Positions 1 to 60,539 of a stretch of 64,000 bases of DNA are shown here, in pieces. The stretch comes from Rugalucina vietnamica. Lineage: Eukaryota; Mollusca; Bivalvia; Lucinida; Lucinidae. Location: the NCBI GenBank assembly GCA_964017185.1, contig OZ024882.1, positions 38,847,988-38,911,987 of the forward strand, in the 5' to 3' direction. The notes under the pieces are model-generated. The model was not told the origin of the DNA. It searched no databases and was given only the letters and a program-made list of their open reading frames with translations. Position 1 is the first letter of the stretch; every line of letters begins with the position of its first letter. The position numbers and the translations under genes are program-made.

Positions 1-3000
1 ACAATGGCTAGTTTCGGAGCAGTAGACCTAGAAGTGTCGAAAATAGCCAATTCTGTACAGGAAAATATGACCCTAGAGCCGTTGGGGGGCCTGGCTACCC
101 TCCTCATCCTCTTTCAATCCTAATGAGACTTGCCACATACATTCATATATCATATACCTTTATTGCAGTATAAGCGGCTTCCTGGCACAAGAGCTAGTTT
201 GGGAGCAAGAGACCGAGAAAGATCGAAAATAATTTTTTTGCACCCCCCTCTGACATAGTGGGGGGTCTGGCTACCCATCTCATCCTCTTTCAATCCTGAT
301 GAGACTTGCCTCATACTTGTATATACTATACATCTATGTCGTAGTACTAGCGGCTTCCTGGCACAAGAGCTAGTTTGGGAGCAGGAAACCGAAAACTCTC
401 GAAAATGGAATTTTTGACACCCCCCATGACATTGGGGGCCCTGGCTACCCATCTCATCCTCTTTCAATCCTGATGAGACTTGCCACATACTTGTATATAC
501 TATACATCTATGTCGTAGTACTAGCGGCTTCCTGGCACAAGAGCTAGTTTGGGAGCAGGATACCAAAAACTATCGAAAATGGAATTTTTTGACACCCCCA
601 TGATATTGGGGGCCCTGGCTACCCATCTCATCCTCTTTCAATCCTGATAAGACTTGCCACATACTTTTATATAACATATACATTTATCACAGTACTAGCG
701 GCTTCCTGGCACAAGAGCTAGTTTCGGAGCAGTAGACCTAGAAGTGTCGAAAATAGCCAATTCTGTACAGGAAAATATGACCCTAGAGCCGTTGGCGGGC
801 CCGGCTTCCCTCCTCATCCTCTTTCAATCCTAATGAGACTTGCCACATACATTCATATATCATATACCTTTATTGCAGTATAAGCGGCTTCCTGGCACAA
901 GAGCTAGTTTGGGAGCAAGAGACCGAGAAAGATCGAAAATAATTTTTTTGCACCCCCCTCTGACATAGTGGGGGGTCTGGCTACCCATCTCATCCTCTTT
1001 CAATCCTGATGAGACTTGCCACATACTTGTATATACTATACATCTATGTCGTAGTACTAGCGGCTTCCTGGCACAAGAGCTAGTTTGGGAGCAGGAAACC
1101 GAAAACTCTCGAAAATGGAATTTTTGACACCCCCCATGACATTGGGGGCCCTGGCTACCCATCTCATCCTCTTTCAATCCTGATGAGACTTGCCACATAC
1201 TTGTATATACTATACATCTATGTCGTAGTACTAGCGGCTTCCTGGCACAAGAGCTAGTTTGGGAGCAGGAAACCGAAAACTCTCGAAAATGGAATTTTTG
1301 ACACCCCCATGACATTGGGGGCCCTGGCTACCCATCTCATCCTCTTTCAATCCTGATGAGACTTGCCACATACTTGTATATACTATACATCTATGTCGTA
1401 GTACTAGCGGCTTTCTGGCACAAGAGCTAGTTTGGGAGCAGGAGACCGAAAACTATCGAAAATGGAATTTTTTGACACCCCCATGATATTGGGGGCCCTG
1501 GCTACCCATCTCATCCTCTTTCAATCCTGATGAGACTTGCCACATACTTTTATATAGCATATACATTTATCACAGTACTAGCGGCTTCCTGGCACAAGAG
1601 CTAGTTTCGGAGCAGTAGACCTAGAAGTGTCGAAAATAGCCAATTCTGTACAGGAAAATATGACCCTAGAGCCGTTGGCGGGCCCGGCTTCCCTCCTCAT
1701 CCTCTTTCAATCCTAATGAGACTTGCCACATACATTCATATATCATATACCTTTATTGCAGTATAAGCGGCTTCCTGGCACAAGAGCTAGTTTGGGAGCA
1801 AGAGACCGAGAAAGATCGAAAATAATTTTTTTGCACCCCCCTCTGACATAGTGGGGGGTCTGGCTACCCATCTCATCCTCTTTCAATCCTGATGAGACTT
1901 GCCACATACTTGTATATACTATACATCTATGTCGTAGTACTAGCGGCTTCCTGGCACAAGAGCTAGTTTGGGAGCAGGAAACCGAAAACTCTCGAAAATG
2001 GAATTTTTGACACCCCCCATGACATTGGGGGCCCTGGCTACCCATCTCATCCTCTTTCAATCCTGATGAGACTTGCCACATACTTGTATATACTATACAT
2101 CTATGTCGTAGTACTAGCGGCTTCCTGGCACAAGAGCTAGTTTGGGAGCAGGAAACCGAAAACTCTCGAAAATGGAATTTTTGACACCCCCCATGACATT
2201 GGGGGCCCTGGCTACCCATCTCATCCTCTTTCAATCCTGATGAGACTTGCCACATACTTGTATATACTATACATCTATGTCGTAGTACTAGCGGCTTTCT
2301 GGCACTAGAGCTAGTTTGGGAGCAGGAGACCGAAAACTATCGAAAATGGAATTTTTTGACACCCCCCATGATATTGGGGGCCCTGGCTACCCATCTCATC
2401 CTCTTTCAATCCTGATGAGACTTGCCACATACTTTTATATAACATATACATTTATCACAGTACTAGCGGCTTCCTGGCACAAGAGCTAGTTTCGGAGCAG
2501 TAGACCTAGAAGTGTCGAAAATAGCCAATTCTGTACAGGAAAATATGACCCTAGAGCCGTTGGGGGGCCTGGCTTCCCTCCTCATCCTCTTTCAATCCTA
2601 ATGAGACTTGCCACATACATTCATATATCATATACCTTTATTGCAGTATAAGCGGCTTCCTGGCACAAGAGCTAGTTTGGGAGCAAGAGACCGAGAAAGA
2701 TCGAAAATAAATTTTTTGCACCCCCCTCTGACATAGTGGGGGGTCTGGCTACCCATCTCATCCTCTTTCAATCCTGATGAGACTTGCCTCATACTTGTAT
2801 ATACTATACATCTATGTCGTAGTACTAGCGGCTTCCTGGCACAAGAGCTAGTTTGGGAGCAGGAAACCGAAAACTCTCGAAAATGGAATTTTTGACACCC
2901 CCCATGACATTGGGGGCCCTGGCTACCCATCTCATCCTCTTTCAATCCTGATGAGACTTGCCACATACTTGTATATACTATACATCTATGTCGTAGTACT

Positions 3001-5218
3001 AGCGGCTTCCTGGCACAAGAGCTAGTTTGGGAGCAGGAGACCGAAAACTATGGAAAATGGAATTTTTTGACACCCCCCATGATATTGGGGGCCCTGGCTA
3101 CCCATCTCATCCTCTTTCAATCCTGATAAGACTTGCCACATACTTTCATATAACATATACATTTATCACAGTACTAGCGGCTTCCTGGCACAAGAGCTAG
3201 TTTCGGAGCAGTATACCTAGAAGTGTCGAAAATAGCCAATTCTGTACAGGAAAATATGACCCTAGAGCCGTTGGGGGGCCCGGCTTCCCTCCTCATCCTC
3301 TTTCAATCCTAATGAGACTTGCCACATACATTCATATATCATATACCTTTATTGCAGTATAAGCGGCTTCCTGGCACAAGAGCTAGTTTGGGAGCAAGAG
3401 ACCGAGAAAGATCGAAAATAATTTTTTTGCACCCCCCTCTGACATAGTGGGGGGTCTGGCTACCCATCTCATCCTCTTTCAATCCTGATGAGACTTGCCA
3501 CATACTTGTATATACTATACATCTATGTCGTAGTACTAGCGGCTTCCTGGCACAAGAGCTAGTTTGGGAGCAGGAAACCGAAAACTCTCGAAAATGGAAT
3601 TTTTGACACCCCCCATGACATTGGGGGCCCTGGCTACCCATCTCATCCTCTTTCAATCCTGATGAGACTTGCCACATACTTGTATATACTATACATCTAT
3701 GTCGTAGTACTAGCGGCTTCCTGGCACAAGAGCTAGTTTGGGAGCAGGAAACCGAAAACTCTCGAAAATGGAATTTTTGACACCCCCATGACATTGGGGG
3801 CCCTGGCTACCCATCTCATCCTCTTTCAATCCTGATGAGACTTGCCACATACTTGTATATACTATACATCTATGTCGTAGTACTAGCGGCTTCCTGGCAC
3901 AAGAGCTAGTTTGGGAGCAGGAGACCGAAAACTATCGAAAATGGATTTTTTTGACACCCCCCATGATATTGGGGGCCCTGGCTACCCATCTCATCCTCTT
4001 TCAATCCTGATGAGACTTGCCACATACTTTTATATGACATATACATTTATCACAGTACTAGCGGCTTCCTGGCACAAGAGCTAGTTTTGGAGCAGTAGAC
4101 CTAGAAGTGTCGAAAATAGCCAATTCTGTACAGGAAAATATGACCCTAGAGCCGTTGGGGGGCCTGGCTACCCTCCTCATCCTCTTTCAATCCTAATGAG
4201 ACTTGCCACATACATTCATATATCATATACCTTTATTGCAGTATAAGCGGCTTCCTGGCACAAGAGCTAGTTTGGGAGCAAGAGACCGAGAAAGATCGAA
4301 AATAATTTTTTTGCACCCCCCTCTGACATAGTGGGGGGTCTGGCTACCCATCTCATCCTCTTTCAATCCTGATGAGACTTGCCTCATACTTGTATATACT
4401 ATACATCTATGTCGTAGTACTAGCGGCTTCCTGGCACAAGAGCTAGTTTGGGAGCAGGAAACCGAAAACTCTCGAAAATGGAATTTTTGACACCCCCCAT
4501 GACATTGGGGGCCCTGGCTACCCATCTCATCCTCTTTCAATCCTGATGAGACTTGCCACATACTTGTATATACTATACATCTATGTCGTAGTACTAGCGG
4601 CTTCCTGGCACAAGAGCTAGTTTGGGAGCAGGAGACCGAAAACTATGGAAAATGGAATTTTTTGACACCCCCCATGATATTGGGGGCCCTGGCTACCCAT
4701 CTCATCCTCTTTCAATCCTGATAAGACTTGCCACATACTTTTATATAACATATACATTTATCACAGTACTAGCGGCTTCCTGGCACAAAAGCTAGTTTCG
4801 GAGCAGTAGACCTAGAAGTGTCGAAAATAGCCAATTCTGTACAGGAAAATATGACCCTAGAGCCGTTGGCGGGCCCGGCTTCCCTCCTCATCCTCTTTCA
4901 ATCCTAATGAGACTTGCCACATACATTCATATATCATATACCTTTATTGCAGTATAAGCGGCTTCCTGGCACAAGAGCTAGTTTGGGAGCAAGAGACCGA
5001 GAAAGATCGAAAATAATTTTTTTGCACCCCCCTCTGACATAGTGGGGGGTCTGGCTACCCATCTCATCCTCTTTCAATCCTGATGAGACTTGCCACATAC
5101 TTGTATATACTATACATCTATGTCGTAGTACTAGCGGCTTCCTGGCACAAGAGCTAGTTTGGGAGCAGGAAACCGAAAACTCTCGAAAATGGAATTTTTG
5201 ACACCCCCCATGACATTG
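1..5218 (-). repeat. 174 bp satellite array, minus orientation, with higher-order repeats
   Basis: About 30 head-to-tail monomers of roughly 174-178 bp. Landmarks in each are GGCTTCCTGGCACAAGAGC, CTCATCCTCTTTCAATCC and a TATATACTATACATC segment. Several monomer types alternate. A distinctive type carrying AGCAGTAGACCTAGAAGTG recurs near 18, 728, 1,611, 2,496, 3,207, 4,091 and 4,802, so spacings are about 710, 883, 885, 711, 884 and 711 bases. These are four- and five-monomer higher-order units. Another type has TTTATTGCAGTATAAGCGG and a CACCCCCCTCTGACATAGTG segment. The array runs off the left edge of the window and stops abruptly at 5,218 inside a monomer. Open frames on the minus strand are explained by the monomer being 58 codons long; I see no sign that they are coding. 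Confidence 0.95.
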
Positions 5219-5340
5219 ACCGGCGTCAAGTTGGATGAAAATTTCATCCGGTGAAAATTTCATCTAGCAGAAGAAAAAAAAAGTTGGATGAAAATTTCAT
5301 CTGGACCTGCCCAGTAAAAGTGGTTCATGTCAAAACAATT
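5219..5340 (+). repeat. Left terminal inverted repeat of the giant element
   Basis: Contains GTTGGATGAAAATTTCATC twice (about 5,229 and 5,283), with a degraded third copy at GGTGAAAATTTCATC. The core GATGAAA-A-TTTCATC is itself a perfect palindrome with 7 bp arms, so each unit can form a small hairpin. It is separated by a run of about nine A and followed by a segment ending GTTCATGTCAAAACAA. The reverse complement is found at 22,761-22,897 with only a few differences. Confidence 0.85.
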
Positions 5341-5880
5341 CCTGTTCCCGTACTAGCTCTTGTTTAGGCAAGCAGCTTATACTGCAATATAGATACATGT
5401 TGTATGAAGGTTTGTGGTAAGTCTCAGTAGTCAGGGCGCCAAAAGTCAGAGGGGGGGGGGGTCAAAAATGATTCTTTCCATATTTCTCGAGATTCTGTTC
5501 CGAATCCAGCTCTTGTGCCAGCAAGCCGCTTATACTGCGATATAGATAAATGTTCTATGAAGGTTTGTGGCAAGTTTAATCAGGATTGAAAGAGGATCCG
5601 AAGGGTAGTCAGGGCGCCAAAAGTCAGAGGGGGTGTCTAAAATGTGTTTTTTTTATATTCCTCGGTCTCCTGCTCCCAAACCAGCTCTTGTGCCAGCAAG
5701 CCGCTTATGCTTGAATATAGATATATGTCCTATGAAGTTTTGTGTCAAGTCTCATCAGGATTGAAAGAGGATGAGATGGGTAGCCAGGGCCCCCAATGTC
5801 ATGGGGGTGTCAAAAATTCCATTTTCGATAGTTTTTGGTCTACTGCTCCCAAACTAGCTCTTGTGCCAGGAAGCCGATAG
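5341..5880 (+). repeat. Diverged satellite monomers at the inner edge of the left terminus
   Basis: About three monomers in plus orientation that keep the CAGCTCTTGTGCCAGCAAGCCGCTT core but differ strongly from the homogenised array. They carry CGCCAAAAGTCAGAGGGGG blocks and a run of about 13 G near 5,450. They are colinear with the reverse complement of the diverged monomers at 22,059-22,760. Divergence that rises toward the end of the element is the pattern expected when the array interior is homogenised by unequal exchange and the edges are not. Confidence 0.85.
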
Positions 5881-8800
5881 TACTACGACATAGATGCATA
5901 GTATATACAAGTATGTGGCAAGTCTCATCAGGATTGAAAGAGGATGAGATGGGTAGCCAGGGCCCCCAATGTCATGGGGGGTGACAAAAAATCCATTTTC
6001 GAGAGTTTTCGGTCTCCTGCTCCCAAACTAGCTCTTGTGCCAGGAAGCCGCTAGTACTACGACATAGATGTATAGTATATACAAGTATGTGGCAAGTCTC
6101 ATTAGGATTGAAAGAGGATCAGATGGGTAGCCAGGGCCCCCAATGTCATGGGGGGTGTCAAAAAATTCCATTTTCGATAGTTTTCCGTCTCCTGCTCCCA
6201 AACTAGCTCTTGTGCCAGGAAGCCGCTAGTACTACGACATAGATGTATAGTATATACAAGTATGTGGCAAGTCTCATCAGGATTGAAAGAGGATGAGATG
6301 GGTAGCCAGGGCCCCCAATGTCATGGGGGGTGTCAAAAAATTCCATTTTCGATAGTTTTCGGTCTCCTGCTCCCAAACTAGCTCTTGTGCCAGGAAGCCG
6401 CTAGCACTACGACATAGATGTATAGTATATACAAGTAAGTGGCAAGTCTCATCAGGATTGAAAGAGGATGAGATGGGTAGCCAGGGCCCCCAATGTCATG
6501 GGGGGTGTCAAAAAATTCCATTTTTGATAGTTTTCCGTCTCCTGCTCCCAAACTAGCTCTTGTGCCAGGAAGCCGCTAGTACTACGACATAGATGTATAG
6601 TATATACAAGTATGTGGCAAGTCTCATCAGGATTGAAAGAGGATGAGATGGGTAGCCAGGGCCCCCAATGTCATGGGGGGTGTCAAAAAATTCCATTTTC
6701 GATAGTTTTCGGTCTCCTGCTCCCAAACTAGCTCTTGTGCCAGGAAGCAGCTAGTACTACGACATAGATGTATAGTATATACAAGTATGTGTCAAGTCTC
6801 ATCAGGATTGAAAGAGGATGAGATGGGTAGCCAGGGCCCCCAATGTCATGGGAGTGTCAAAAATTCCATTTTCGAGAGTTTTCGGTTTCCTGCTCCCAAA
6901 CTAGCTCTTGTGCCAGGAAGCCGCTAGTACTACGACATAGATGTATAGTATATACAAGTATGTGGCAAGTCTCATCAGGATTGAAAGAGGATGAGATGGG
7001 TAGCCAGGGCCCCAAATGTCATGGGGGGTGTCAAAAAATTCCATTTTCGATAGTTTTCGGTCTCCTGCTCACAAACTAGCTCTTGTGCCAGGAAGCCGCT
7101 AGTACTACGACATAGATGTATAGTATATACAAGTATGTGGCAAGTCTCATCAGGATTGAAAGAGGATGAGATGGGTAGCCAGGGCCCCCAATGTCATGGG
7201 GGTGTCAAAAAATTCCATTTTCGATAGTTTTCGGTCTCCTGCTCCCAAACTAGCTTTTGTGCCAGGAAGCCGCTAGTACTACGACATAGATGTATAGTAT
7301 ATACAAGTATGTGGCAAGTCTCATCAGGATTGAAAGAGGATGAGATGGGTAGCCAGGGCCCCCAATGTCATGGAGGTGTCAAAAAATTCTATTTTCGATA
7401 GTTTTCGGTCTCCTGCTCCCAAACTAGCTCTTGTGCCAGGAAGCCGCTAGCACTACGACATAGATGTATAGTATATACAAGTATGTGGCAAGTCTCATCA
7501 GGATTGAAAGAGGATGAGATGGGTAGCCAGGGCCCCCAATGTCATGGGGGGTGTCAAAAAATTCCATTTTCGATAGTTTTCCGTCTCCTGCTCCCAAACT
7601 AGCTCTTGTGCCAGGAAGCCGCTAGTACTACGACATAGATGTATAGTATATACAAGTATGTGGCAAGTCTCATCAGGATTGAAAGAGGATGAGATGGGTA
7701 GCCAGGGCCCCCAATGTCATGGGGGTGTCAAAAATTCCATTTTCGATAGTTTTCGGTCTCCTGCTCCCAAACTAGCTCTTGTGCCAGGAAGCAGCTAGTA
7801 CTACGACATAGATGTATAGTATATACAAGTATGTGGCAAGTCTCATCAGGATTGAAAGAGGATGAGATGGGTAGCCAGGGCCCCCAATGTCATGGGAGTG
7901 TCAAAAATTCCATTTTCGAGAGTTTTCGGTTTCCTGCTCCCAAACTAGCTCTTGTGCCCGAAAGCCGCTAGTACTAAGACATAGATGTATAGTATATACA
8001 AGTATGTGGCAAGTCTCATCAGGATTGAAAGAGGATGAGATGGGTAGCCAGGGCCCCAAATGTCATGGGGGGTGTCAAAAAATTCCATTTTCGATAGTTT
8101 TCGGTCTCCTGCTCCCAAACTAGCTCTTGTGCCAGGAAGCCGCTAGTACTACGACATAGATGTATAGTATATACAAGTATGTGGCAAGTCTCATCAGGAT
8201 TGAAAGAGGATGAGATGGGTAGCCAGGGCCCCCAATGTCATGGGGGTGTCAAAAAATTCCATTTTCGATAGTTTTCGGTCTCCTGCTCCCAAACTAGCTC
8301 TTGTGCCAGGAAGCCGCTAGTACTACGACATAGATGTATAGTATATACAAGTATGTGGCAAGTCTCATCAGGATTGAAAGAGGATGAGATGGGTAGCCAG
8401 GGCCCCAAATGTCATGGGGGGTGTCAAAAAATTCCATTTTCGATAGTTTTCGGTCTCCTGCTCCCAAACTAGCTCTTGTGCCAGGAAGCCGCTAGTACTA
8501 CGACATAGATGTATAGTATATACAAGTATGTGGCAAGTCTCATCAGGATTGAAAGAGGATGAGATGGGTAGCCAGGGCCCCCAATGTCATGGGGGGTGTC
8601 AAAAAATTCCATTTTCGATAGTTTTCCGTCTCCTGCTCCCAAACTAGCTCTTGTGCCAGGAAGCCGCTAGTACTACGACATAGATGTATAGTATATACAA
8701 GTATGTGGCAAGTCTCATCAGGATTGAAAGAGGATGAGATGGGTAGCCAGGGCCCCCAATGTCATGGGGGTGTCAAAAATTCCATTTTCGATAGTTTTCG

Positions 8801-11800
8801 GTCTCCTGCTCCCAAACTAGCTCTTGTGCCAGGAAGCAGCTAGTACTACGACATAGATGTATAGTATATACAAGTATGTGGCAAGTCTCATCAGGATTGA
8901 AAGAGGATGAGATGGGTAGCCAGGGCCCCCAATGTCATGGGAGTGTCAAAAATTCCATTTTCGAGAGTTTTCGGTTTCCTGCTCCCAAACTAGCTCTTGT
9001 GCCCGAAAGCCGCTAGTACTAAGACATAGATGTATAGTATATACAAGTATGTGGCAAGTCTCATCAGGATTGAAAGAGGATGAGATGGGTAGCCAGGGCC
9101 CCAAATGTCATGGGGGGTGTCAAAAAATTCCATTTTCGATAGTTTTCGGTCTCCTGCTCCCAAACTAGCTCTTGTGCCAGGAAGCCGCTAGTACTACGAC
9201 ATAGATGTATAGTATATACAAGTATGTGGCAAGTCTCATCAGGATTGAAAGAGGATGAGATGGGTAGCCAGGGCCCCCAATGTCATGGGGGTGTCAAAAA
9301 ATTCCATTTTCGATAGTTTTCGGTCTCCTGCTCCCAAACTAGCTCTTGTGCCAGGAAGCCGCTAGTACTACGACATAGATGTATAGTATATACAAGTATG
9401 TGGCAAGTCTCATCAGGATTGAAAGAGGATGAGATGGGTAGCCAGGGCCCCAAATGTCATGGGGGTGTCAAAAAATTCCATTTTTGATAGTTTTCGGTCT
9501 CCTGCTCCCAAACTAGCTCTTGTGCCAGGAAGCCGCTAGTACTACGACATAGATGTATAGTATATACAAGTATGTGGCAAGTCTCATCAGGATTGAAAGA
9601 GGATGAGATGGGTAGCCAGGGCCCCCAATGTCATGGGGGTGTCAAAAAATTCCATTTTCGATAGTTTTCGGTCTCCTGCTCCCAAACTAGCTCTTGTGCC
9701 AGGAAGCCGCTAGTACTACGACATAGATGTATAGTATATACAAGTATGTGGCAAGTCTCATCAGGATTGAAAGAGGATCAGATGGGTAGCCAGGGCCCCC
9801 AATGTCATGGGGGTGTCAAAAATTCCATTTTCGATAGTTTTCCGTCTCCTGCTCCCAAACTAGCTCTTGTGCCAGGAAGCCGCTAGTACTACGACATAGA
9901 TGTATAGTATATACAAGTATGTGGCAAGTCTCATCAGGATTGAAAGAGGATGAGATGGGTAGCCAGGGCCCCCAATGTCATGGGGGGTGTCAAAAATTCC
10001 ATATTCGATAGTTTTCGGTCTCCTGCTCCCAAACTAGCCCTTGTGCCAGGAAGCAGCTAGCACTACGACATAGATGTATAGTATATACAAGTATGTGGCA
10101 AGTCTCATCAGGATTGAAAGAGGATCAGATGGGTAGCCAGGGCCCCCAATGTCATGGGGGGTGTCAAAAAATTCCATTTTCGATAGTTTTCCGTCTCCTG
10201 CTCCCAAACTAGCTCTTGTGCCAGGAAGCCGCTAGTACTACGACATAGATGTATAGTATATACAAGTATGTGGCAAGTCTCATCAGGATTGAAAGAGGAT
10301 GAGATGGGTAGCCAGGGCCCCCAATGTCATGGGGGGTGTCAAAAAATCCATTTTCGATAGTTTTCGGTCTCCTGCTCCCAAACTAGCTCTTGTGCCAGGA
10401 AGCAGCTAGTACTACGACATAGATGTATAGTATATACAAGTATGTGGCAAGTCTCATCAGGATTGAAAGAGGATGAGATGGGTAGCCAGGGCCCCCAATG
10501 TCATGGGAGTGTCAAAAATTCCATTTTCGAGAGTTTTCGGTTTCCTGCTCCCAAACTAGCTCTTGTGCCAGGAAGCCGCTAGTACTACGACATAGATGTA
10601 TAGTATATACAAGTATGTGGCAAGTCTCATCAGGATTGAAAGAGGATGAGATGGGTAGCCAGGGCCCCAAATGTCATGGGTGGTGTCAAAAAATTCCATT
10701 TTCGATAGTTTTCGGTCTCCTGCTCCCAAACTAGCTCTTGTGCCAGGAAGCCGCTAGTACTACGACATAGATGTATAGTATATACAAGTATGTGGCAAGT
10801 CTCATCAGGATTGAAAGAGGATGAGATGGGTAGCCAGGGCCCCCAATGTCATGGGGGTGTCAAAAAATTCCATTTTCGATAGTTTTCGGTCTCCTGCTCC
10901 CAAACTAGCTCTTATGCCAGGAAGCCGCTAGTACTACGACATAGATGTATAGTATATACAAGTATGTGGCAAGTCTCATCAGGATTGAAAGAGGATGAGA
11001 TGGGTAGCCAGGGCCCCCAATGTCATGGAGGTGTCAAAAAATTCCATTTTCGATAGTTTTCGGTCTCCTGCTCCCAAACTAGCTCTTGTGCCAGGAAGCC
11101 GCTAGCACTACGACATAGATGTATAGTATATACAAGTATGTGGCAAGTCTCATCAGGATTGAAAGAGGATGAGATGGGTAGCCAGGGCCCCCAATGTCAT
11201 GGGGGTGTCAAAAAATTCCATTTTCGATAGTTTTCGGTCTCCTGCTCCCAAACTAGCTCTTGTGCCAGGAAGCCGCTAGTACTACGACATAGATGTATAG
11301 TATATACAAGTATGTGGCAAGTCTCATCAGGATTGAAAGAGGATGAGATGGGTAGCCAGGACCCCAAATGTCATGGGGGTGTCACAAAATTCCATTTTTG
11401 ATAGTTTTCGGTCTCCTGCTCCCAAACTAGCTCTTGTGCCAGGAAGCCGCTAGTACTACGACATAGATGTATAGTATATACAAGTATGTGGCAAGTCTCA
11501 TCAGGATTGAAAGAGGATGAGATGGGTAGCCAGGGCCCCCAATGTCATGGGGGTGTCAAAAAATTCCATTTTCGATAGTTTTCGGTCTCCTGCTCCCAAA
11601 CTAGCTCTTGTGCCAGGAAGCCGCTAGTACTACGACATAGATGTATAGTATATACAAGTATGTGGCAAGTCTCATCAGGATTGAAAGAGGATCAGATGGG
11701 TAGCCAGGGCCCCCAATGTCATGGGGGTGTCAAAAATTCCATTTTCGATAGTTTTCGGTCTCCTGCTCCCAAACTAGCTCTTGTGCCAGGAAGCCGCTAG

Positions 11801-14800
11801 TACTACGACATAGATGTATAGTATATACAAGTATGTGGCAAGTCTCATCAGGATTGAAAGAGGATGAGATGGGTAGCCAGGGCCCCCAATGTCATGGGGG
11901 GTGTCAAAAATTCCATTTTCGATAGTTTTCGGTCTCCTGCTCCCAAACTAGCTCTTGTGCCAGGAAGCAGCTAGCACTACGACATAGATGTATAGTATAT
12001 ACAAGTATGTGGCAAGTCTCATCAGGATTGAAAGAGGATCAGATGGGTAGCCAGGGCCCCCAATGCCATGGGGGGTGTCAAAAAATTCCATTTTCGATAG
12101 TTTTCGGTCTCCTGCTCCCAAACTAGCTCTTGTGCCAGGAAGCAGCTAGTACTACGACATAGATGTATAGTATATACAAGTATGTGGCAAGTCTCATCAG
12201 GATTGAAAGAGGATGAGATGGGTAGCCAGGGCCCCCAATGTCATGGGAGTGTCAAAAATTCCATTTTCGAGAGTTTTCGGTTTCCTGCTCCCAAACTAGC
12301 TCTTGTGCCAGGAAGCCGCTAGTACTACGACATAGATGTATAGTATATACAAGTATGTGGCAAGTCTCATCAGGATTGAAAGAGGACGAGATGGGTAGCC
12401 AGGGCCCAAATGTCATGGGGGGTGTCAAAAAATTCCATTTTCGATAGTTTTCGGTCTCCTGCTCCCAAACTAGCTCTTGTGCCAGAAAGCCGCTAGTACT
12501 ACGACATAGATGTATAGTATATACAAGTATGTGGCAAGTCTCATCAGGATTGAAAGAGGATGAGATGGGTAGCCAGGGCCCCCAATGTCATGGGGGTGTC
12601 AAAAAATTCCATTTTCGATAGTTTTCGGTCTCCTGCTCCCAAACTAGCTCTTGTGCCAGGAAGCCGCTAGTACTACGACATAGATGTATAGTATATACAA
12701 ATATGTGGCAAGTCTCATCAGGATTGAAAGAGGATGAGATGGGTAGCCAGGGCCCCAAATGTCATGGGGGTGTCAAAAAATTCCATTTTCGATAGTTTTC
12801 GGTCTCCTGCTCCCAAACTAGCTCTTGTGCCAGGAAGCCGCTAGTACTACGACATAGATGTATAGTATATACAAGTATGTGGCAAGTCTCATCAGGATTG
12901 AAAGAGGATCAGATGGGTAGCCAGGGCCCCCAATGTCATGGGGGGTGTCAAAAAATTCCATTTTCGATAGTTTTCCGTCTCCTGCTCCCAAACTAGCTCT
13001 TGTGCCAGGAAGCCGCTAGTACTACGACATAGATGTATAGTATATACAAGTATGTGGCAAGTCTCATCAGGATTGAAAGAGGATGAGATGGGTAGCCAGG
13101 GCCCCCAATGTCATGGGGGTGTCAAAAATTCCATTTTCGATAGTTTTCGGTCTCCTGCTCCCAAACTAGCTCTTGTGCCAGGAAGCAGCTAGTACTACGA
13201 CATAGATGTATAGTATATACAAGTATGTGGCAAGTCTCATCAGGATTGAAAGAGGATGAGATGGGTAGCCAGGGCCCCCAATGTCATGGGAGTGTCAAAA
13301 ATTCCATTTTCGAGAGTTTTCGGTTTCCTGCTCCCAAACTAGCTCTTGTGCCAGGAAGCCGCTAGTACTAAGACATAGATGTATAGTATATACAAGTATG
13401 TGGCAAGTCTCATCAGGATTGAAAGAGGATGAGATGGGTAGCCAGGGCCCCAAATGTCATGGGGGTGTCAAAAAATTCCATTTTCGATAGTTTTCGGTCT
13501 CCTGCTCCCAAACTAGCTCTTGTGCCAGGAAGCCGCTAGTACTACGACATAGATGTATAGTATATACAAGTATGTGGCAAGTCTCATCAGGATTGAAAGA
13601 GGATGAGATGGGTAGCCAGGGCCCCCAATGTCATGGGGGTGTCAAAAAATTCCATTTTCGATAGTTTTCGGTCTCCTGCTCCCAAACTAGCTCTTGTGCC
13701 AGGAAGCCGCTAGTACTACGACATAGATGTATAGTATATACAAGTATGTGGCAAGTCTCATCAGGATTGAAAGAGGATGAGATGGGTAGCCAGGGCCCCA
13801 AATGTCATGGGGGTGTCAAAAAATTCCATTTTCGATAGTTTTCGGTCTCCTGCTCCCAAACTAGCTCTTGTGCCAGGAAGCCGCTAGTACTACGACATAG
13901 ATGTATAGTATATACAAGTATGTGGCAAGTCTCATCAGGATTGAAAGAGGATCAGATGGGTAGCCAGGGCCCCCAATGTCATGGGGGTGTCAAAAATTCC
14001 ATTTTCGATAGTTTTCCGTCTCCTGCTCCCAAACTAGCTCTTGTGCCAGGAAGCCGCTAGTACTACGACATAGATGTATAGTATATACAAGTATGTGGCA
14101 AGTCTCATCAGGATTGAAAGAGGATGAGATGGGTAGCCAGGGCCCCCAATGTCATGGGGGGGTGTCAAAAAATTCCATTTTCGATAGTTTTCGGTCTCCT
14201 GCTCCCAAACTAGCTCTTGTGCCAGGAAGCAGCTAGTACTACGACATAGATGTATAGTATATACAAGTATGTGGCAAGTCTCATCAGGATTGAAAGAGGA
14301 TGAGATGGGTAGCCAGGGCCCCAAATGTCATGGGGGGTGTCAAAAAATTCCATTTTCGATAGTTTTCGGTCTCCTGCTCCCAAACTAGCTCTTGTGCCAG
14401 GAAGCCGCTAGTACTACGACATAGATGTATAGTATATACAAGTATGTGGCAAGTCTCATCAGGATTGAAAGAGGATGAGATGGGTAGCCAGGGCCCCCAA
14501 TATCATGGGGGTGTCAAAAAAATCCATTTTCGATAGTTTTCGGTCTCCTGCTCCCAAACTAGCTCTTGTGCCAGGAAGCCGATAGTACTACGACATAGAT
14601 GTATAGTATATACAAGTATGTGGCAAGTCTCATCAGGATTTAAAAAAGAGGATCAGATTGGTAGCCAGGGCCCCTAATGTCATGGGGGGTGTCAAAAAAT
14701 TCCATTTTCGATAGTTTTCCGTCTACTGCTCCCAAACTAGCTCTTGTGCCAGGAAGCCGCTAGTACTACGACATAGATGTATAGTATATACAAGTATGTG

Positions 14801-17800
14801 GCAAGTCTCATCAGGATTGAAAGAGGATTAGATGGGTAGCCAGGGCCCAAATGTCATGGGGGGTGTCAAAAAATTCCATTTTCGATAGTTTTCGGTCTCC
14901 TGCTCCCAAACTAGCTCTTGTGCCAGAAAGCCGCTAGTACAACGACATAGATGTATAGTATATACAAGTATGTGGCAAGTCTCATCAGGATTGAAAGAGG
15001 ATGAGATGGGTAGCCAGGGCCCCCAATGTCATGGGGGTGTCAAAAAATTCCATTTTCGATAGTTTTCGGTCTCCTGCTCCCAAACTAGCTCTTGTGCCAG
15101 GAAGCCGCTAGTACTACGACATAGATGTATAGTATATACTAATATGTGGCAAGTCTCATCAGGATTGAAAGAGGATGAGATGGGTAGCCAGGGCCCCCAA
15201 TGTCATGAAGGTGTCAAAAAATTCCATTTTCGATAGTTTTCGGTCTCCTGCTCCCAAACTAGCTCTTGTGCCAGGAAGCCGCTAGCACTACGACATAGAT
15301 GTATAGTATATACAAGTATGTGGCAAGTCTCATCAGGATTGAAAGAGGATGAGATGGGTAGCCAGGGCCCCCAATGTCATGGGGGGTGTCAAAAAATTCC
15401 ATTTTCGATAGTTTTCCGTCTCCTGCTCCCAAACTAGCTCTTGTGCCAGGAAGCCGCTAGTACTACGACATAGATGTATAGTATATACAAGTATGTGGCA
15501 AGTCTCATCAGGATTGAAAGAGGATGAGATGGGTAGCCAGGGCCCCCAATGTCATGGGGGTGTCAAAAATTCCATTTTCGATAGTTTTCGGTCTCCTGCT
15601 CCCAAACTAGCTCTTGTGCCAGGAAGCAGCTAGTACTACGACATAGATGTATAGTATATACAAGTATGTGGCAAGTCTCATCAGGATTGAAAGAGGATGA
15701 GATGGGTAGCCAGGGCCCCCAATGTCATGGGAGTGTCAAAAATTCCATTTTCGAGAGTTTTCGGTTTCCTGCTCCCAAACTAGCTCTTGTGCCAGGAAGC
15801 CGCTAGTACTAAGACATAGATGTATAGTATATACAAGTATGTGGCAAGTCTCATCAGGATTGAAAGAGGATGAGATGGGTAGCCAGGGCCCCAAATGTCA
15901 TGGGGGGTGTCAAAAAATTCCATTTTCGATAGTTTTCGGTCTCCTGCTCCCAAACTAGCTCTTGTGCCAGGAAGCCGCTAGTACTACGACATAGATGTAT
16001 AGTATATACAAGTATGTGGCAAGTCTCATCAGGATTGAAAGAGGATGAGATGGGTAGCCAGGGCCCCCAATGTCATGGGGGTGTCAAAAAATTCCATTTT
16101 CGATAGTTTTCGGTCTCCTGCTCCCAAACTAGCTCTTGTGCCAGGAAGCCGCTAGTACTACGACATAGATGTATAGTATATACAAGTATGTGGCAAGTCT
16201 CATCAGGATTGAAAGAGGATGAGATGGGTAGCCAGGGCCCCAAATGTCATGGGGGTGTCAAAAAATTCCATTTTCGATAGTTTTCGGTCTCCTGCTCCCA
16301 AACTAGCTCTTGTGCCAGGAAGCCGCTAGTACTACGACATAGATGTATAGTATATACAAGTATGTGGCAAGTCTCATCAGGATTGAAAGAGGATCAGATG
16401 GGTAGCCAGGGCCCCCAATGTCATGGGGGGTGTCAAAAATTCCATTTTCGATAGTTTTCGGTCTCCTGCTCCCAAACTAGCTCTTGTGCCAGGAAGCCGC
16501 TAGTACTACGACATAGATGTATAGTATATACAAGTATGTGGCAAGTCTCATCAGGATTGAAAGAGGATGAGATGGGTAGCCAGGGCCCCCAATGTCATGG
16601 GGGGTGTCAAAAAATTCCATTTTCGATAGTTTTCGGTCTCCTGCTCCCAAACTAGCTCTTGTGCCAGGAAGCAGCTAGTACTACGACATAGATGTATAGA
16701 ATATACAAGTATGTGGCAAGTCTCATCAGGATTGAAAGAGGATGAGATGGGTAGCCAGGGCCCCAAATGTCATGGGGGTGTCAAAAAATTCCATTTTCGA
16801 TAGTTTTCGGTCTCCTGCTCCCAAACTAGCTCTTGTGCCAGGAAGCCGCTAGTACTACGACATAGATGTATAGTATATACAAGTATGTGGCAAGTCTCAT
16901 CAGGATTGAAAGAGGATGAGATGGGAAGCCAGGGCCCCCAATGTCATGGGGGTGTCAAAAAATTCCATTTTCGATAGTTTTCGGTCTCCTGCTCCCAAAC
17001 TAGCTATTGTGCCAGGAAGCCGCTAGTACTACGACATAGATGTATAGTATATACAAGTATGCGGCAAGTCTCATCAGGATTGAAAGAGGATGAGATGGGT
17101 AGCCAGGGCCCCCAATGTCATGGGGGTGTCAAAAAATTCCATTTTCGATAGTTTTCGGTCTCCTGCTCCCAAACTAGCTCTTGTGCCAGGAAGCCGCTAG
17201 TACTACGACATAGATGTATAGTATATACAAGTATGTGGCAAGTCTCATCAGGATTGAAAGAGGATGAGATGGGTAGCCAGGGCCCCAAATGTCATGGGGG
17301 TGTCAAAAAATTCCATTTTCGATAGTTTTCGGTCTCCTGCTCCCAAACTAGCTCTTGTGCCAGGAAGCCGCTAGTACTAAGACATAGATGTATAGTATAT
17401 ACAAGTATGTGGCAAGTCTCATCAGGATTGAAAGAGGATGAGATGGGTAGCCAGGGCCCCAAATGTCATGGGGGTGTCAAAAAATTCCATTTTCGATAGT
17501 TTTCGGTCTCCTGCTCCCAAACTAGCTCTTGTGCCAGGAAGCCGCTAGTACTACGACATAGATGTATAGTATATACAAGTATGTGGCAAGTCTCATCAGG
17601 ATTGAAAGAGGATCAGATGGGTAGCCAGGGCCCCCAATGTCATGGGGGGTGTCAAAAATTCCATTTTCGATAGTTTTCCGTCTCCTGCTCCCAAACTAGC
17701 TCTTGTGCCAGGAAGCCGCTAGTACTACGACATAGATGTATAGTATATACAAGTATGTGGCAAGTCTCATCAGGATTGAAAGAGGATGAGATGGGTAGCC

Positions 17801-18515
17801 AGGGCCCCCAATGTCATGGGGGGTGTCAAAAAATTCCATTTTCGATAGTTTTCGGTCTCCTGCTCCCAAACTAGCTCTTGTGCCAGGAAGCAGCTAGTAC
17901 TACGACATAGATGTATAGTATATACAAGTATGTGGCAAGTCTCATCAGGATTGAAAGAGGATGAGATGGGTAGCCAGGGCCCCCAATGTCACGGGAGTGT
18001 CAAAAATTCCATTTTCGATAGTTTTCGGTCTCCTGCTCCCAAACTAGCTCTTGTGCCAGGAAGCCGCTAGTACTACGACATAGATGTATAGTATATACAA
18101 GTATGTGGCAAGTCTCATCAGGATTGAAAGAGGATGAGATGGGTAGCCAGGGCCCCCAATGTCATGGGGGGTGTCAAAAAATCCATTTTCGATAGTTGTC
18201 GGTCTCCTGCTCCCAAACTAGCTCTTGTGCCAGGAAACAGCTAGTACTACGACATAGATGTATAGAATATACAAGTATGTGGCAAGTCTCATCAGGATTG
18301 AAAGAGGATGAGATGGGTAGCCAGGGCCCCAAATGTCATGGGGGTGTCAAAAAATTCCATTTTCGATAGTTTTCGGTCTCCTGCTCCCAAACTAGCTCTT
18401 GTGCCAGGAAGCCGCTAGTACTACGACATAGATGTATAGTATATACAAGTATGTGGCAAGTCTCATCAGGATTGAAAGAGGATGAGATGGGTAGCCAGGG
18501 CCCCAAATGTCATGG
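5881..18515 (+). repeat. 174 bp satellite array, plus orientation, about 72 monomers
   Basis: Highly homogeneous head-to-tail monomers of 174 bp. A diagnostic variant (CATGGGAGTGTCAAAAATTC with CGAGAG in place of CGATAG) starts at 6,843, 7,887, 8,932, 10,498, 12,238, 13,281 and 15,722. These spacings are about 6, 6, 9, 10, 6 and 14 monomers, so a six-monomer unit of about 1,044 bp was amplified and later rearranged. Each monomer has an imperfect GGGCCCCCAATGTCATGGGG hairpin-like segment and a TATA-like segment. Local irregularities include an AAAAAAG expansion near 14,640. The 58-codon length keeps frames open for one to two monomers only; single-base changes in the G run break them. Confidence 0.95.
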
Positions 18516-21500
18516 GGAGCAGGAGACGGAAAACTATCGAAAATGGAATTTTTGACACCCCCATGACATTGGGGGCCCTGGCTACCCATCTGATCCTCTT
18601 TCAATCCTGATGAGACTTGCCACATACTTGTATATACTATACATCTATGTCGTAGTACTAGCGGCTTCCTGGCACAAGAGCTAGTTTGGGAGCAGGAGAC
18701 CGAAAACTATCGAAAATGGAATTTTTGACACCCCCATGACATTGGGGGCCCTGGCTACCCATCTCATCCTCTTTCAATCCTGATGAGACTTGCCACATTC
18801 TTGTATATACTATACATCTATGTCGTAGTACTAGCGGCTTCCTGGCACAAGAGCTAGTTTGGGAGCAGGAGACCGAAAACTATCGAAAATGGAATTTTTT
18901 GACACCCCCATGACATTGGGGGCCCTGGCTACCCATCTCATCCTCTTTCAATCCTGATGAGACTTGCCACATACTTGTATATACTATACATCTATGTCGT
19001 AGTACTAGCGGCTTCCTGGCACAAGAGCTAGTTTGGGAGCAGGAGACCGAAAACTATCGAAAATGGAATTTTTTGACACCCCCATGACATTTGGGGCCCT
19101 GGCTACCCATCTCATCCTCTTTCAATCCTAATGAGACTTGCCACATACTTGTATATACTATACATCTATGTCGTAGTACTAGTGGCTTCCTGGCACAAGA
19201 GCTAGTTTGGGAGCAGGAGACCGAAAACTATCGAAAATGGAATTTTTTGACACCCCCATGACATTGGGGGCCCTGGCTACCCATCTCATCCTCTTTCAAT
19301 CCTGATGAGACTTGCCACATACTTGTATATACTATACATCTATGTCGTAGTACTAGCGGCTTCCTGGCACAAGAGCTAGTTTGGGAGCAGGAGACCGAAA
19401 ACTATCGAAAATGGAATTTTTGACACCCCCATGACATTTGGGGCCCTGGCTACCCATCTCATCCTCTTTCAATCCTGATGAGACTTGCCACATACTTGTA
19501 TATACTATACATCTATGTCGTAGTACTAGCGGCTTCCTGGCACAAGAGCTAGTTTGGGAGCAGGAAACCGAAAACTCTCGAAAATGGAATTTTTGACACC
19601 CCCCATGACATTGGGGGCCCTGGCTACCCATCTCATCCTCTTTCAATCCTGATGAGACTTGCCACATACTTGTATATACTATACATCTATGTCGTAGTAC
19701 TAGCTGTTTCCTGGCACAAGAGCTAGTTTGGGACCAGGAGACCGACAACTATCGAAAATGGAATTTTTTGACACCCCCATGACATTGGGGGCCCTGGCTA
19801 CCCATCTCATCCTCTTTCAATCCTGATGAGACTTGCCACATACTTGTATATACTATACATCTATGTCGTAGTACTAGCGGCTTCCTGGCACAAGAGCTAG
19901 TTTGGGAGCAGGAAACCGAAAACTCTCGAAAATGGAATTTTTGACACCCCCCATGACATTGGGGGCCCTGGCTAGTTTGGGAGCAGGAAACCGAAAACTA
20001 TCGAAAATGGAATTTTTTGACACCCCCATGACATTGATGGCCCTGGCTACCCATCTCATCCTCTTTCAATCCTGATGAGACTTGCCACATACTTGTATAT
20101 ACTATACATCTATGTCGTAGTACTAGCGGCTTCCTGGCACAAGAGCTAGTTTGGGAGCAGGAGACCGAAAACTATCGAAAATGGAATTTTTTGACACCCC
20201 CATGACATTGGGGGCCCTGGCTACCCATCTCATCCTCTTTCAATCCTGATGAGACTTGCCACATACTTGTATATACTATACATCTATGTCGTAGTACTAG
20301 CGGCTTCCTGGCACAAGAGCTAGTTTGGGAGCAGGAGACCGAAAACTATCGAAAATGGAATTTTTTGACACCCCCATGACATTTGGGGCCCTGGCTACCA
20401 ATCTCATCCTCTTTCAATCCTGATGAGACTTGCCACATACTTGTATATACTATACATCTATGTCGTAGTACTAGCGGCTTCCTGGCACAAGAGCTAGTTT
20501 GGGAGCAGGAAACCGAAAACTCTCGAAAATGGAATTTTTGACACCCCCCATGACATTGGGGGCCCTGGCTACCCATCTCATCCTCTTTCAATTCTGATGA
20601 GACTTGCCACATACTTGTATATACTATACATCTATGTCGTAGTACTAGCGGCTTCCTGGCACAAGAGCTAGTTTGGGAGCAGGAGACGGAAAACTATCGA
20701 AAATGGAATTTTTTGACACCCCCATGACATTGGGGGCCCTGGCTACCCATCTCATCCTCTTTCAATCCTGATGAGACTTGCCACATACTTGTATATACTA
20801 TACATCTATGGCGTAGTACTAGCTGTTTCCTGGCACAAGAGCTAGTTTGGGACCAGGAGACCGACAACTATCGAAAATGGAATTTTTTGACACCCCCATG
20901 ACATTGGGGGCCCTGGCTACCCATCTCATCCTCTTTCAATCCTGATGAGACTTGCGACGTACTTGTATATACTATACATCTATGTCGTAGTACTAGCGGC
21001 TTCCTGGCACAAGAGCTAGTTTGGGAGCAGGAGACCGAAAACTATCGAAAATGGAATTTTTTGACACCCCCATGACATTGGGGGCCCTGGCTACCCATCT
21101 CATCCTCTTTCAATCCTGATGAGACTTGCCACATACTTGTATATACTATACATCTATGTCGTAGTACTAGCGGCTTCCTGGCACAAGAGCTAGTTTGGGA
21201 GCAGGAGACCGAAAACTATCGAAAATGGAATTTTTTGACACCCCCATGACATTGGGGGCCCTGGCTACCCATCTCATCCTCTTTCAATCCTGATGAGACT
21301 TGTCACATACTTGTATATACTATACATCTATGTCGTAGTACTAGCGGCTTCCTGGCACAAGAGCTAGTTTGGGAGCAGGAGACCGAAAACTATCGAAAAT
21401 GGAATTTTTTGACACCCCCATGACATTTGGGGCCCTGGCTACCCATCTCATCCTCTTTCAATCCTGATGAGACTTGCCACATACTTGTATATACTATACA

Positions 21501-21860
21501 TCTATGTCGTAGTACTAGCGGCTTCCTGGCACAAGAGCTAGTTTGGGAGCAGGAAACCGAAAACTCTCGAAAATGGAATTTTTTGACACTCCCCATGATA
21601 TTGGGGGCCCTGGCTACCCATCTCATCCTCTTTCAATCCTGATGAGACTTGCCACATACTTTTATATGACATATACATTTATCACAGTACTAGCGGCTTC
21701 CTGGCACAATGGCTAGTTTCGGAGCAGTAGACCTAGAAGTGTCGAAAATAGCCAATTCTGTACAGGAAAATATGACCCTAGAGCCGTTGGGGGGCCTGGC
21801 TACCCTCCTCATCCTCTTTCAATCCTAATGAGACTTGCCACATACATTCATATATCATCA
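18516..21860 (-). repeat. 174 bp satellite array, minus orientation, right arm
   Basis: About 19 monomers in the opposite orientation to the block before it. The switch happens at CATGGGG/AGCAGGAGAC, within monomers and not at a symmetric point, with 3-4 G of shared sequence at the joint. One monomer is internally deleted near 19,974 (CCTGGCTAGTTTGGGAGC). From 21,706 to 21,860 the sequence repeats the first 155 bases of the window almost exactly, including the unusual CACAATGGCTAG variant, which ties this arm to the left array. The array breaks off at TTCATATATCAT. Confidence 0.93.
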
Positions 21861-22058
21861 TTTAAAGAACCATAGACACAAACCATAATGTTCGGATGGT
21901 TTGGTTTGCCTTATTCTAAAAATCGTGGATGGCCTGCACGTTTCTATGGGGACACGCTCAAAAAATGTCTTACAAAATTTTATTGCTTTAAATAGAAAAT
22001 CAATAATCTATAAGATTTTAAACTCAAAAACAAACAAAAATCTTGTACAACACGTTCA
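21861..22058. other. Non-satellite insert of about 200 bp in the right arm
   Basis: This stretch, from CATTTAAAGAACCATAG to about CTTGTACAACACGTT, has no resemblance to the monomers. It separates the homogeneous array from the diverged monomers. The left arm has no counterpart, so it is either an insertion or a remnant of the original element core. No coding potential or known family recognised. Confidence 0.6.
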
Positions 22059-22760
22059 CAGTATAAGCCGAATGCTGGCAAAAGAGCTGGCTTGGGGGCT
22101 GAAGTTAGTGAAATTTTGAAATCATTATTTGGATACCCCTCTGATATTTGGCACCCTGCCTACCCTTCTCATCCTCTTTCAATCATAATAAGACTTGCCT
22201 CGTTCCTTCATACAACATCTACCTATATGGTGGTATAAGCGGTTTAGTGGCACAAGAGCTGGTTTGGGGTCTAGAGATCGAGAAATGTTGAAAACAGCAT
22301 TATGGACACCCCTCTGATATTTGGCGCCCTGTCTATCCATCTCATCCTCTTTCAATCCTGATGAGACTTGCAACAAAACTTCATAGAACATATACCTATA
22401 TTCAAGCATAAGCGGCTTGCTGGCACAAGAGCTGGTTTGGGAGCAGGAGACCGAGGAATATCAAAAACCGCATTTTAGACACCCCCCTCCGACTTTTGGT
22501 GACCTGATTACCCTTCGGATCCTCTTTCAATCCTGATGAAATTTGCCACAAACCTCTATAGAACATTTATCTATATCGCAGTATAAGCGGCTTGCAGGCA
22601 CAAGAGCTGGTTTCGGAACAGAATCTCGAAAAATATTGAAAGAAACATTTTGACCCCCCCCCCCCTCTGACTTTTGTCGCCCAGACTACTGAGGCTTACC
22701 ACAAACCTTCATACAACATGTATCTATATTGCAGTATAAGCTGCTTGCCTAAATAAGAGC
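22059..22760 (-). repeat. Diverged satellite monomers at the inner edge of the right terminus
   Basis: About four monomers in minus orientation, mirror image of those at 5,341-5,880. Shared features include CTGATGAGACTTG, a CACCCCCCTCCGACTTTTGG segment and a run of about 13-14 C near 22,655 that pairs with the G run at 5,450. This arm keeps at least one more diverged monomer than the left arm, with ATATTTGGCGCCCTG blocks. Confidence 0.85.
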
Positions 22761-22897
22761 TAGTACGGGAGCAGGATTTGTTTTGACATGAACCACTTTT
22801 ACTGGGCAGGTCCAGATGAAATTTTCATCCAACTTTTTTTTTCTTCTGCTAGATGAAATTTTCACCGGATGAAATTTTCATCCAACTTGACACCGGT
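22761..22897 (-). repeat. Right terminal inverted repeat of the giant element
   Basis: Reverse complement of 5,219-5,340: GAACCACTTTTACTGGGCAG, then GATGAAATTTTCATCCAAC units around a T run, ending CTTGACACCGGT. Only scattered substitutions separate it from the left copy. Confidence 0.85.
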
Positions 22898-22984
22898 GAA
22901 AACCAATGTATATCAAAACTTGATAAAATTAGTATTTTCATTGATATGAAATTTCACTGATATCAAATCTCACTGATGTCAAAA

Positions 22985-49397: not shown

Positions 49398-49976
49398 TCA
49401 TTTTTGGGGTAGCCCAGTGTTCAAATATTACATTTACAGTGCTATTTCTAAAACACATAAATCATGACTTTTCTGCTTTTCCTAGTAGGAACGTCATAAT
49501 GCCCGAAGGTACATTTTGTCGCGTTGGGGTTCATTAACATGTGTTCAATATAATAATATTCAAACATTTTCTTCTTTGAAACCGCTTTGCCAATCAAAGC
49601 CAAACTTTATGCGGAGCATTCTTAGGAAGAGTGAATGAAAGTTTGTATAAATGGTCAAGGTCACATGAGCAAGATGGCCGCCATCGCTACAAAAGTATAA
49701 ATGGCAAAAACCTTTAAAAATCTTCTTCTCTAGAACCAGAAGCCCTATGATTTTGAAACTTGGCATGAAGCATCAGACAATGGAGCTCTACAAATTTTTT
49801 ATAAATCATGACACTTGGATGACCTTGACCTATTTACGGCCTATTTATGGGGAAAATCGTAAAATGTCATTTAAAGGGCAAAACTTGTAGTAAATTGGCA
49901 AATGGACTGAATTTTTATGGTTTGAAAAAGAAATTGACTCCAGGGTTTGCCCTGCCCTGGGGTTATATACATGTAT

Positions 49977-50179
49977 TGTAACGAACAGCCGAGCAAAGCC
50001 ACAGCAAACCCCGTCGGTGGAAAAGCATGCTCATCCACCAAGGGTGGTTTACTGCGCTATATACCTAACACTTACTCTAATCACAAAGTTTCGAGTTTCT
50101 AATTTGCATATTACTACCCGCTAATATGCCGCTAATACGTTGCACCAACGTATTCTACAAGGGAGACTATCCCGTTACA
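49977..50179 (-). repeat. LTR (3' LTR on the minus strand)
   Basis: Differs from its partner by a few substitutions and short indels, mostly in the outer GAACAGCCGAGCAAAGCC part. High similarity means a fairly recent insertion. Confidence 0.88.
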
Positions 50180-59600: not shown

Positions 59601-60539
59601 GCCATTAAGGTGGTCCCTCTGACCACACTGGCAGCCATGGGAATTGGTTAAATGGATGCAAGATAGACCTTATAACCTATCCAAATCCTTGCAATGGATA
59701 AAGTTTTTCCCTTGTTTTTCCACATTTTTTTGACATTTTTATTAATATTCATGAATATGCAAATGAGATAATTTTCATATAGGCCCAGATCATCAATACA
59801 TTTGTCATATAATATTACTGGTTTAATAATAAAGTGTCAGAATGACAGTTTGGGCCTGAAATTAGTTTATTTATGAATTTTTATGCTTTTTCTGTCATTT
59901 TTAAAGTTTTCATTAAAATTCATGAATATGAAATTTCAAAAATTTGCATTACTCACTGTAGGATAAAAGGGCTATATCTAAGCTTTAAAATGAGACCAAT
60001 TTTAGTGGTCTAGGGTAATTAACAATGGAGATGTGGTCAATTTTCTATGTACACCCCCATGCTCAAGAATCACTTTAATGGTTGCCATGGAAACCATGCA
60101 TTTTTTCATAGTGCAATTGAGTTTATCTTTGAGGACAAAAATTCTTTGCATTTCTGGGGTCCCAATGAACGATTTGGCACCCATGAAAAATTGTCCTGGG
60201 GGTGCAAGGTAGGTCAAATTAGCTCCCGGGGTAATACTATCCTTACAGGCAATCTGTCGTAATTATTTTGTCTATTGTTATGATGATGCGGTTGCTATGG
60301 TTACCGTTTAACGATGGATAATTAAAAATAATGTGTATTATGGGCTAAAACAAGGGCAGACAACTCCAAATATTGAAAAATAATATGTTTTAAAACTCAT
60401 TCATTTGGTAGCCCAGTCTTCTAAGATTACAAATACAGTGTTATTTCTAAAACGTATATTACATCATTTTTCCGCATTTTGCTGTTTTCTACTTGTAATG
60501 TCAGAATGTCCGAAGGTACATTTTGTCGCGTTGAGGTTC
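56675..60539 (+). mobile_element. Family B TIR element, copy 3, carrying a large palindromic insertion
   Basis: Left end GGGCCACAACGTGAGAAAAT, right end TTTTGTCGCGTTGAGGTTC. ATAT flanks both sides (56,671-56,674 and 60,540-60,543). The undisturbed host reads TTTACCATATATGGG in family F copy 1, confirming the insertion. Without the nested 3.26 kb palindrome it would be about 600 bp, like copy 2. Confidence 0.85.
56970..60233. mobile_element. 3.26 kb nearly complete palindrome with repeat-built arms (Foldback-like)
   Basis: Ends TACCCCGGGAGC (56,970) and GCTCCCGGGGTA (60,233), with ATA on both sides. The arms pair almost to the centre near 58,600, so each is about 1.6 kb. The outer parts are very alike (TTGCACCCCCAGGACAATTT and its mirror) and similarity falls inwards. 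Each arm contains degenerate units of roughly 175-190 bp, seen at about 58,090, 58,265 and 58,460 (AATATCTC-type word, then ATGGTATCAAATG, then a TATGACC-type word). No transposase was seen. A T run at 59,348-59,369 is private to the right arm. Confidence 0.85.

Follow-up and report, generated by a model that had tools for sequence, protein, structure and literature searches.

The closest known system to the elements described here is Tetris of Drosophila virilis, a foldback element that was linked to satellite DNA in 2014 (PMC4079207). The excerpt of that report used for this comparison describes three structurally complete copies with inverted repeats of up to 1,735 bp and 8-10 bp duplications, and states that no transposase was found; fibre-FISH displayed long satellite arrays between two flanking domains (PMC4079207). 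The family from the bivalve Rugalucina vietnamica resembles Tetris in having a flanking domain and tandem repeats inside the inverted repeats, those of Tetris being about 220 bp in the same excerpt (PMC4079207). According to corresponding excerpts for other systems, it shares variable composite inverted repeats and 9-bp duplications with the Mutator/Foldback family Tm1 of root-knot nematodes (PMC3169594). With Galileo of the P superfamily it shares long inverted repeats of repetitive internal structure that expand and contract, as well as chimeric subfamily copies (PMC3573991). The Helentron satellite repeats of oysters are likewise described, in the part consulted, as satellite-like monomers on a mobile element (PMC7492417).

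The window, a stretch of 64,000 nucleotides starting at C14:38847988, was originally predicted to contain a 17.7-kb Foldback-like element with satellite arms, and the predicted order of its parts was recovered. The left terminal block (5219-5340, + strand, starting ACCGGCGTC) returns reversed at 22778-22897 (- strand, starting ACCGGTGTC on that strand) with 99.2% identity over 120 bp (E 3e-59), and the other matches of the block in the window at E ≤1e-3 were only its own short internal repeats. Next to the blocks are degenerate edge monomers, located at 5341-5855 on the left (+), where the two full ones are 79% and 88% identical to the consensus, and at 22057-22777 on the right (-). As predicted, the diverged monomers are colinear, the two ends aligning over 767 columns with 88.8% identity. 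The homogenised 174-bp monomers further inside lie in opposite orientation. The left arm (5856-18517, +) contains 73 monomers, the last one cut, with a mean pairwise identity of 98.0%, and the right arm (18518-21845, -) ends in variant monomers. Consensuses built from the inner monomers, 73 on the left and 17 on the right, are identical, and the mean identity is 98%. The orientation flips at 18515-18517, where the arms overlap by 3 bp (GGG) without a spacer. The right arm also includes 196 bp of non-monomer DNA (21861-22056, -), a segment that the original prediction did not mention and that the family regularly carries in one of its two end types. Judged from the inverted arms, a single strand of such an element would be expected to fold back into a hairpin. 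Scans against Rfam, for tRNAs and against viral contigs found nothing.

The family was searched for in the genome of the window itself (1.09 Gb, 47 contigs). A 122-bp block gave 212 candidates, and the best 40, which were scored, were all 100% identical over at least 120 bp, a value that partly reflects this selection. The opening 33 bases of the block, searched as an exact match, occurred 154 times (83 on the + and 71 on the - strand), while the same pattern read backward gave no match. Among 100 listed sites of the 154, 38 pairs of consecutive sites faced inward within 150 kb, compared with six other close neighbours (three outward, two ++ and one --), and for 24 of the 100 no exact mate in an inward pair was present. 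Because of this excess of inward pairs and the empty backward control, the inward pairing of termini is not due to chance. The original prediction would have fallen if terminal blocks elsewhere never occurred in inverted pairs around the monomers; such pairs are present. The 38 pairs ranged from 5,930 to 103,662 bp with a median of 37.2 kb and a sum of 1.53 Mb, lengths that depend on the assembly.

Target-site duplications, also expected from the prediction, were found as identical nonamers directly outside both ends in 28 of 39 pairs. This set corresponds to the 38 listed pairs and C16, and was assembled from 12 pairs of the first search, the 5.93-kb copy (by eye) and 26 further pairs. In the remaining pairs, the nonamers agreed at 8/9 positions in four, 7/9 in one, 6/9 in one and four or fewer in five (C8:43636971, C3:59568964, C3:8502149, C7:32597779 and C7:51870776). 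When lengths of 3 to 15 bp were compared in 10 pairs, 9 bp alone stood out. As a control, all 399 left-right combinations (21 x 19) of 40 ends were compared; 9/9 agreement was confined to the eight true mates, with non-mates not exceeding 7, while the 650 non-mates of the 26-pair set reached at most 6. The largest pair, C9:14917804 (103.7 kb), displayed 9/9 and the second largest, C6:2208037 (102.7 kb), 8/9; a 71.3-kb pair also displayed 9/9. Pairs with 9/9 did not differ in size from the other pairs (p 0.56). Insertion of paired ends with duplication of 9 bp is thereby shown for assembled sizes between 6 and 104 kb.

Eight interiors were read, namely those of six pairs (12.9 to 38.6 kb), the 5.93-kb copy and the window copy. 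Inserts aside, all eight consisted of inverted arrays of the 174-bp monomer and displayed the same order, with a terminal block, degenerate monomers and + satellite followed by the flip, - satellite, degenerate monomers and a terminal block. The remaining 32 pairs are known from their ends, one of them (C1:22195342) also from 99 exact monomer matches, the first lying 531 bp inside its left end. Non-satellite inserts or spacers were detected in four of the six pairs (C3b 1.1 kb, C16 1.0 and 0.65 kb, C7a 3.7 kb, C3c 11.4 kb), and a common core at the flip was sought, but the inner gaps of these four had no shared sequence at E 1e-5. The gap of C3c has direct ends of 1,432 bp that are 99.65% alike and open frames that appear retroelement-like by eye, and we take it for an inserted LTR retroelement. 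Since this insert lies in the right arm of C3c, the array must be older than the retroelement-like insertion. The gap of C7a, with inverted ends matching by eye, looks like another insertion.

At 29 of 30 ends the outside 1.5 kb was free of monomers, the exception being the left end of the window copy, and the flanks of these 30 ends shared only partial, diverged repeats. For typing, 32 ends were sampled and 31 aligned, one with a doubled block being set aside. The 196-bp segment was absent within 1.6 kb in 21 of the 31 ends (type A) and present within about 1 kb in the other 10 (type B). With a cut of 3%, 18 of these 21 segment-less ends formed one cluster, and C3cL and C8y fell with type B. 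Copies with A/A, A/B and B/B ends were all found.

The original prediction had also named short copies and empty sites as support. A short copy was found, the compact 5.93-kb element having the same plan and a 9/9 duplication. Empty sites fared less well: two of eight joined flanks had matches that spanned the junction with 15 bp or more on each side, the best candidates being C11 with window positions 49892-49980 (86%) and C6b with L010 (86%). Since both are repeats and extend past the junction by just 16 and 23 bp on the left side, their support is weak.

The assignment to a Foldback-like class holds, as long inverted repeats of tandem units were present in all seven read pairs and in the window, and the number of units varied per side in the read copies, as in Foldback elements. 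The 9-bp duplications agree with both the 8-10 bp of Foldback and the 9 bp of Mutator-like elements, the window pair excepted. The foldback family is apparently non-autonomous. The genome contains 59 MULE matches, many in long open frames; none of the 59 lay within the 38 pairs and none was located on C16, 100 of the 154 termini being covered. With no MULE match inside a pair, the superfamily is read from duplication length, and the best guess is that the transposase acting in trans is probably Mutator-like. The P superfamily, which includes Galileo, was rejected because 7-bp duplications would be expected and only 9 bp stood out in the 10 pairs. Helitrons and Helentrons have neither terminal inverted repeats nor target duplications, and were ruled out by the inverted termini and 9-bp duplications.

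A monomer 25-mer matched exactly at 5,407 places on the + and 5,716 on the - strand of the genome (11,123 in total), against none for the control; the strands are balanced, in line with inverted arms. The six read copies contained 506 matches in 160.9 kb, i.e. 3.15 per kb. If the 1.53 Mb belonging to 100 termini is extrapolated to all 154, the elements would total about 2.4 Mb and a rough forecast would be about 7,400 matches, a number that the denser C1 copy (99 matches in 21.4 kb) would raise. The first 100 matches along C1 comprised 99 in one element and one isolated match. As the observed number exceeds the forecast, intact elements may not hold all of the satellite; much of it fits within elements, and a share may lie outside or in elements with worn ends.

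We hold with high confidence that these copies represent a family of foldback DNA transposons with satellite arms, which insert with a 9-bp duplication, would be served by a transposase in trans and have arms that would grow in place, the window copy most likely being rearranged. As implied by the duplications, a transposase from elsewhere would insert the copies by a 9-bp staggered cut. An ordinary satellite modified by random inversions or segmental duplication, without any transposition, would be a rival reading. Satellites do invert, and the flanks of C7:32597779 are duplicated in inverted orientation over 295 bp. Such processes, however, would hardly produce perfect 9-bp duplications at 28 of 39 pairs and at none of the control combinations, nor arrays bounded by the terminal block in 29 of 30 cases between flanks with partial, diverged repeats alone, and we regard this rival as practically untenable. 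After placement, each arm would then grow and homogenise internally by unequal exchange or slippage, which is suggested by arms that are mostly most alike within themselves: the best match of an 870-bp arm segment lay in its own arm for 124 of 174 segments and elsewhere for 50. The left arm of C6b, internally up to 100% alike, is 99.1% identical to C7a vs 96.7% to its own right arm. Other elements won as often or more for the right arms of C6b, C16 and the window copy and the left arm of C3c, and the opposite arm won for the right arm of C7a. That whole arrays instead move at full length, without growth after insertion, agrees with the perfect duplications around copies of up to 103.7 kb and with a 711-bp higher-order unit common to different elements at about 98-99%, for which arrays of several units must have travelled. 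The internal likeness of most arms argues against it, as do the two arms of one copy, which are frequently unlike in length and kind, and the differing flips; full-length movement is therefore considered unlikely, although far from negligible. The monomer phase at the flip differs among C3a, C3c, C7a, the window copy and the 5.93-kb copy, in which the arms are joined with overlaps of 3 bp (window), 2 bp (C7a) and 0 bp (5.93-kb copy) or with 1 (C3c) and 4 (C3a) extra bases; the arms of C6b are separated by about 95 bp of diverged sequence, and those of C3b and C16 by unrelated DNA. The differences in phase and joins and the unrelated DNA indicate that the middle was not inherited intact across the compared copies. 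It may be re-made in each copy and joined with a 0-3 bp overlap or 1-4 extra bases, and failed gap repair after excision would be one way to do so. An extension of this model, in which movement and failed gap repair re-make the middle and swap or lengthen the arms, could turn a copy of about 6 kb into inverted arrays of 100 kb, a satellite factory working mostly between transposon ends; we offer it as a tentative idea that is somewhat more doubtful than probable.

The window copy did not follow the family in its flanks. The nonamers outside its left end (ATGACATTG, 5210-5218, within a satellite monomer) and its right end (GAAAACCAA, 22898-22906) agree at 1/9 positions, so that the pair 5219/22897 lacks the target-site duplication of a single insertion; a 3-bp duplication (TGA) noted by eye was dropped, since the family uses 9 bp. 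The simple 17.7-kb element inserted at 5218/22898, as first drawn, would explain termini that face each other, colinear ends and a single flip, but it conflicts with the nonamers, with a right flank of non-satellite DNA opposite a left flank of - satellite, and with ends of different types. The left end is of type A and nearest to the ends of C16 (98.7%) and C12 (98.6%), while the type B right end has one monomer fewer and is at most 94.8% identical to any other end compared. We thus regard a simple insertion as improbable, and the window pair as probably a rearranged composite of two copies. Most likely, a left and a right end of the family were brought together by a later rearrangement inside the satellite, two copies being joined through loss of the stretch between direct - arms. 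In one detailed version, to which we give about an even chance, element A inserted into the - arm of element B, the - arms recombined, the right end of A was lost, and the left end of A and the right end of B remain. This agrees with the satellite directly left of 5219, which extends leftward from 5218 over 25 kb or more and is in - orientation apart from an inverted stretch of about 175 bp. This outer array, which the original prediction did not mention, occupies 1-5218 (-) of the window, has a multi-monomer higher-order unit and extends at least 20 kb upstream of the window, and a 9.1-kb stretch of it is repeated at 99.9%. The nonamer at the left end of A, being satellite sequence, also fits, and the - arms of A and B would form mutual direct repeats. 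Against this version, a search of the assembly that allowed one mismatch found no left end preceded by GAAAACCAA, the nonamer of B, which means that the other end of B would be missing or mutated. An assembly error behind the arrangement is possible as well.

The family represents a jumping element by which satellite DNA is brought to new genomic sites. How satellites originate and spread is an old question, for which a foldback route was proposed from Tetris. The link between a mobile element and satellite birth made in the original prediction is supported here, but is not new in kind, as Tetris preceded it in 2014 in the excerpted report (PMC4079207). One assembly with 39 delimited insertions of 6 to 104 kb would allow growth, homogenisation and movement to be dated per copy, because most of these insertions have marked ends and duplications. 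With large inverted arrays at so many places, rearrangements would also be expected there.

Compared by description with the excerpted account of Tetris, the unit here is 174 bp and 39 assembled pairs span 5.9-103.7 kb, 28 of them with perfect 9-bp duplications (PMC4079207). Tm1 differs in its unit of 13-15 bp, one described copy of 1,080 bp and some members that encode a putative transposase, as the part consulted describes (PMC3169594). Galileo has 7-bp duplications, and its chimeras with two different ends lost their matching flanks according to the corresponding excerpt (PMC3573991). Here, the 196-bp segment was present at one end alone in C3a, C6b, C3c and C7b; three of these keep 9/9 duplications and C7b has 7/9, the other end of C3c being of an intermediate type. 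Helentron-type elements are unlike the present family in that they are not known to have long inverted repeats or 9-bp duplications. No element of such kind and size was found in the literature searched by title and start of abstract, a search whose coverage takes in few subscription papers. No described foldback element is known to come anywhere near the size of the copy of about 104 kb, whose inverted repeats are flanked by a perfect duplication. What is new relative to the known systems is the scale, the number of delimited copies and the mixed-end copies that retain their duplications.

Two inward-facing pairs of terminal blocks in the assembly displayed unusual ends or flanks. The 13.7-kb pair on contig C7 (G000:C7:32597379-32611868; ends L119 and L120) was enclosed by an inverted duplication of its own flank (295 bp, 98.2%), an arrangement that would fit a fold-back of the site followed by copying. 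At the right end (G000:C3:59589465-59589864) of C3b, a pair on contig C3, a direct duplication about 283 bp long had doubled the right terminal block. The long minus-orientation satellite array outside the left terminus of the window copy contained one inverted stretch of about 175 bp, some 4 kb beyond the window's left edge (G000:C14, L050).

Within the window, a further foldback-like structure was observed at 56970-60233, with nested inverted arms of 123-356 nt and a complementarity of 78-92%. A tandem repeat with a 375-bp unit occupied 33536-35643 (5.6 copies, 99% identity), and a GC-rich tandem family, spaced mostly at about 145-170 bp, was found in two places (36534-37765 and 60637-62696). 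The segment 28019-29685 represents the remains of a LINE; it encoded a zf-RVT domain, and its endonuclease match was weak, under the family cut-off.

The satellite of the right arm of C3c, another of the pairs, carried an 11.4-kb insert that resembles an LTR retroelement (L039-L041), with end repeats 99.65% alike.
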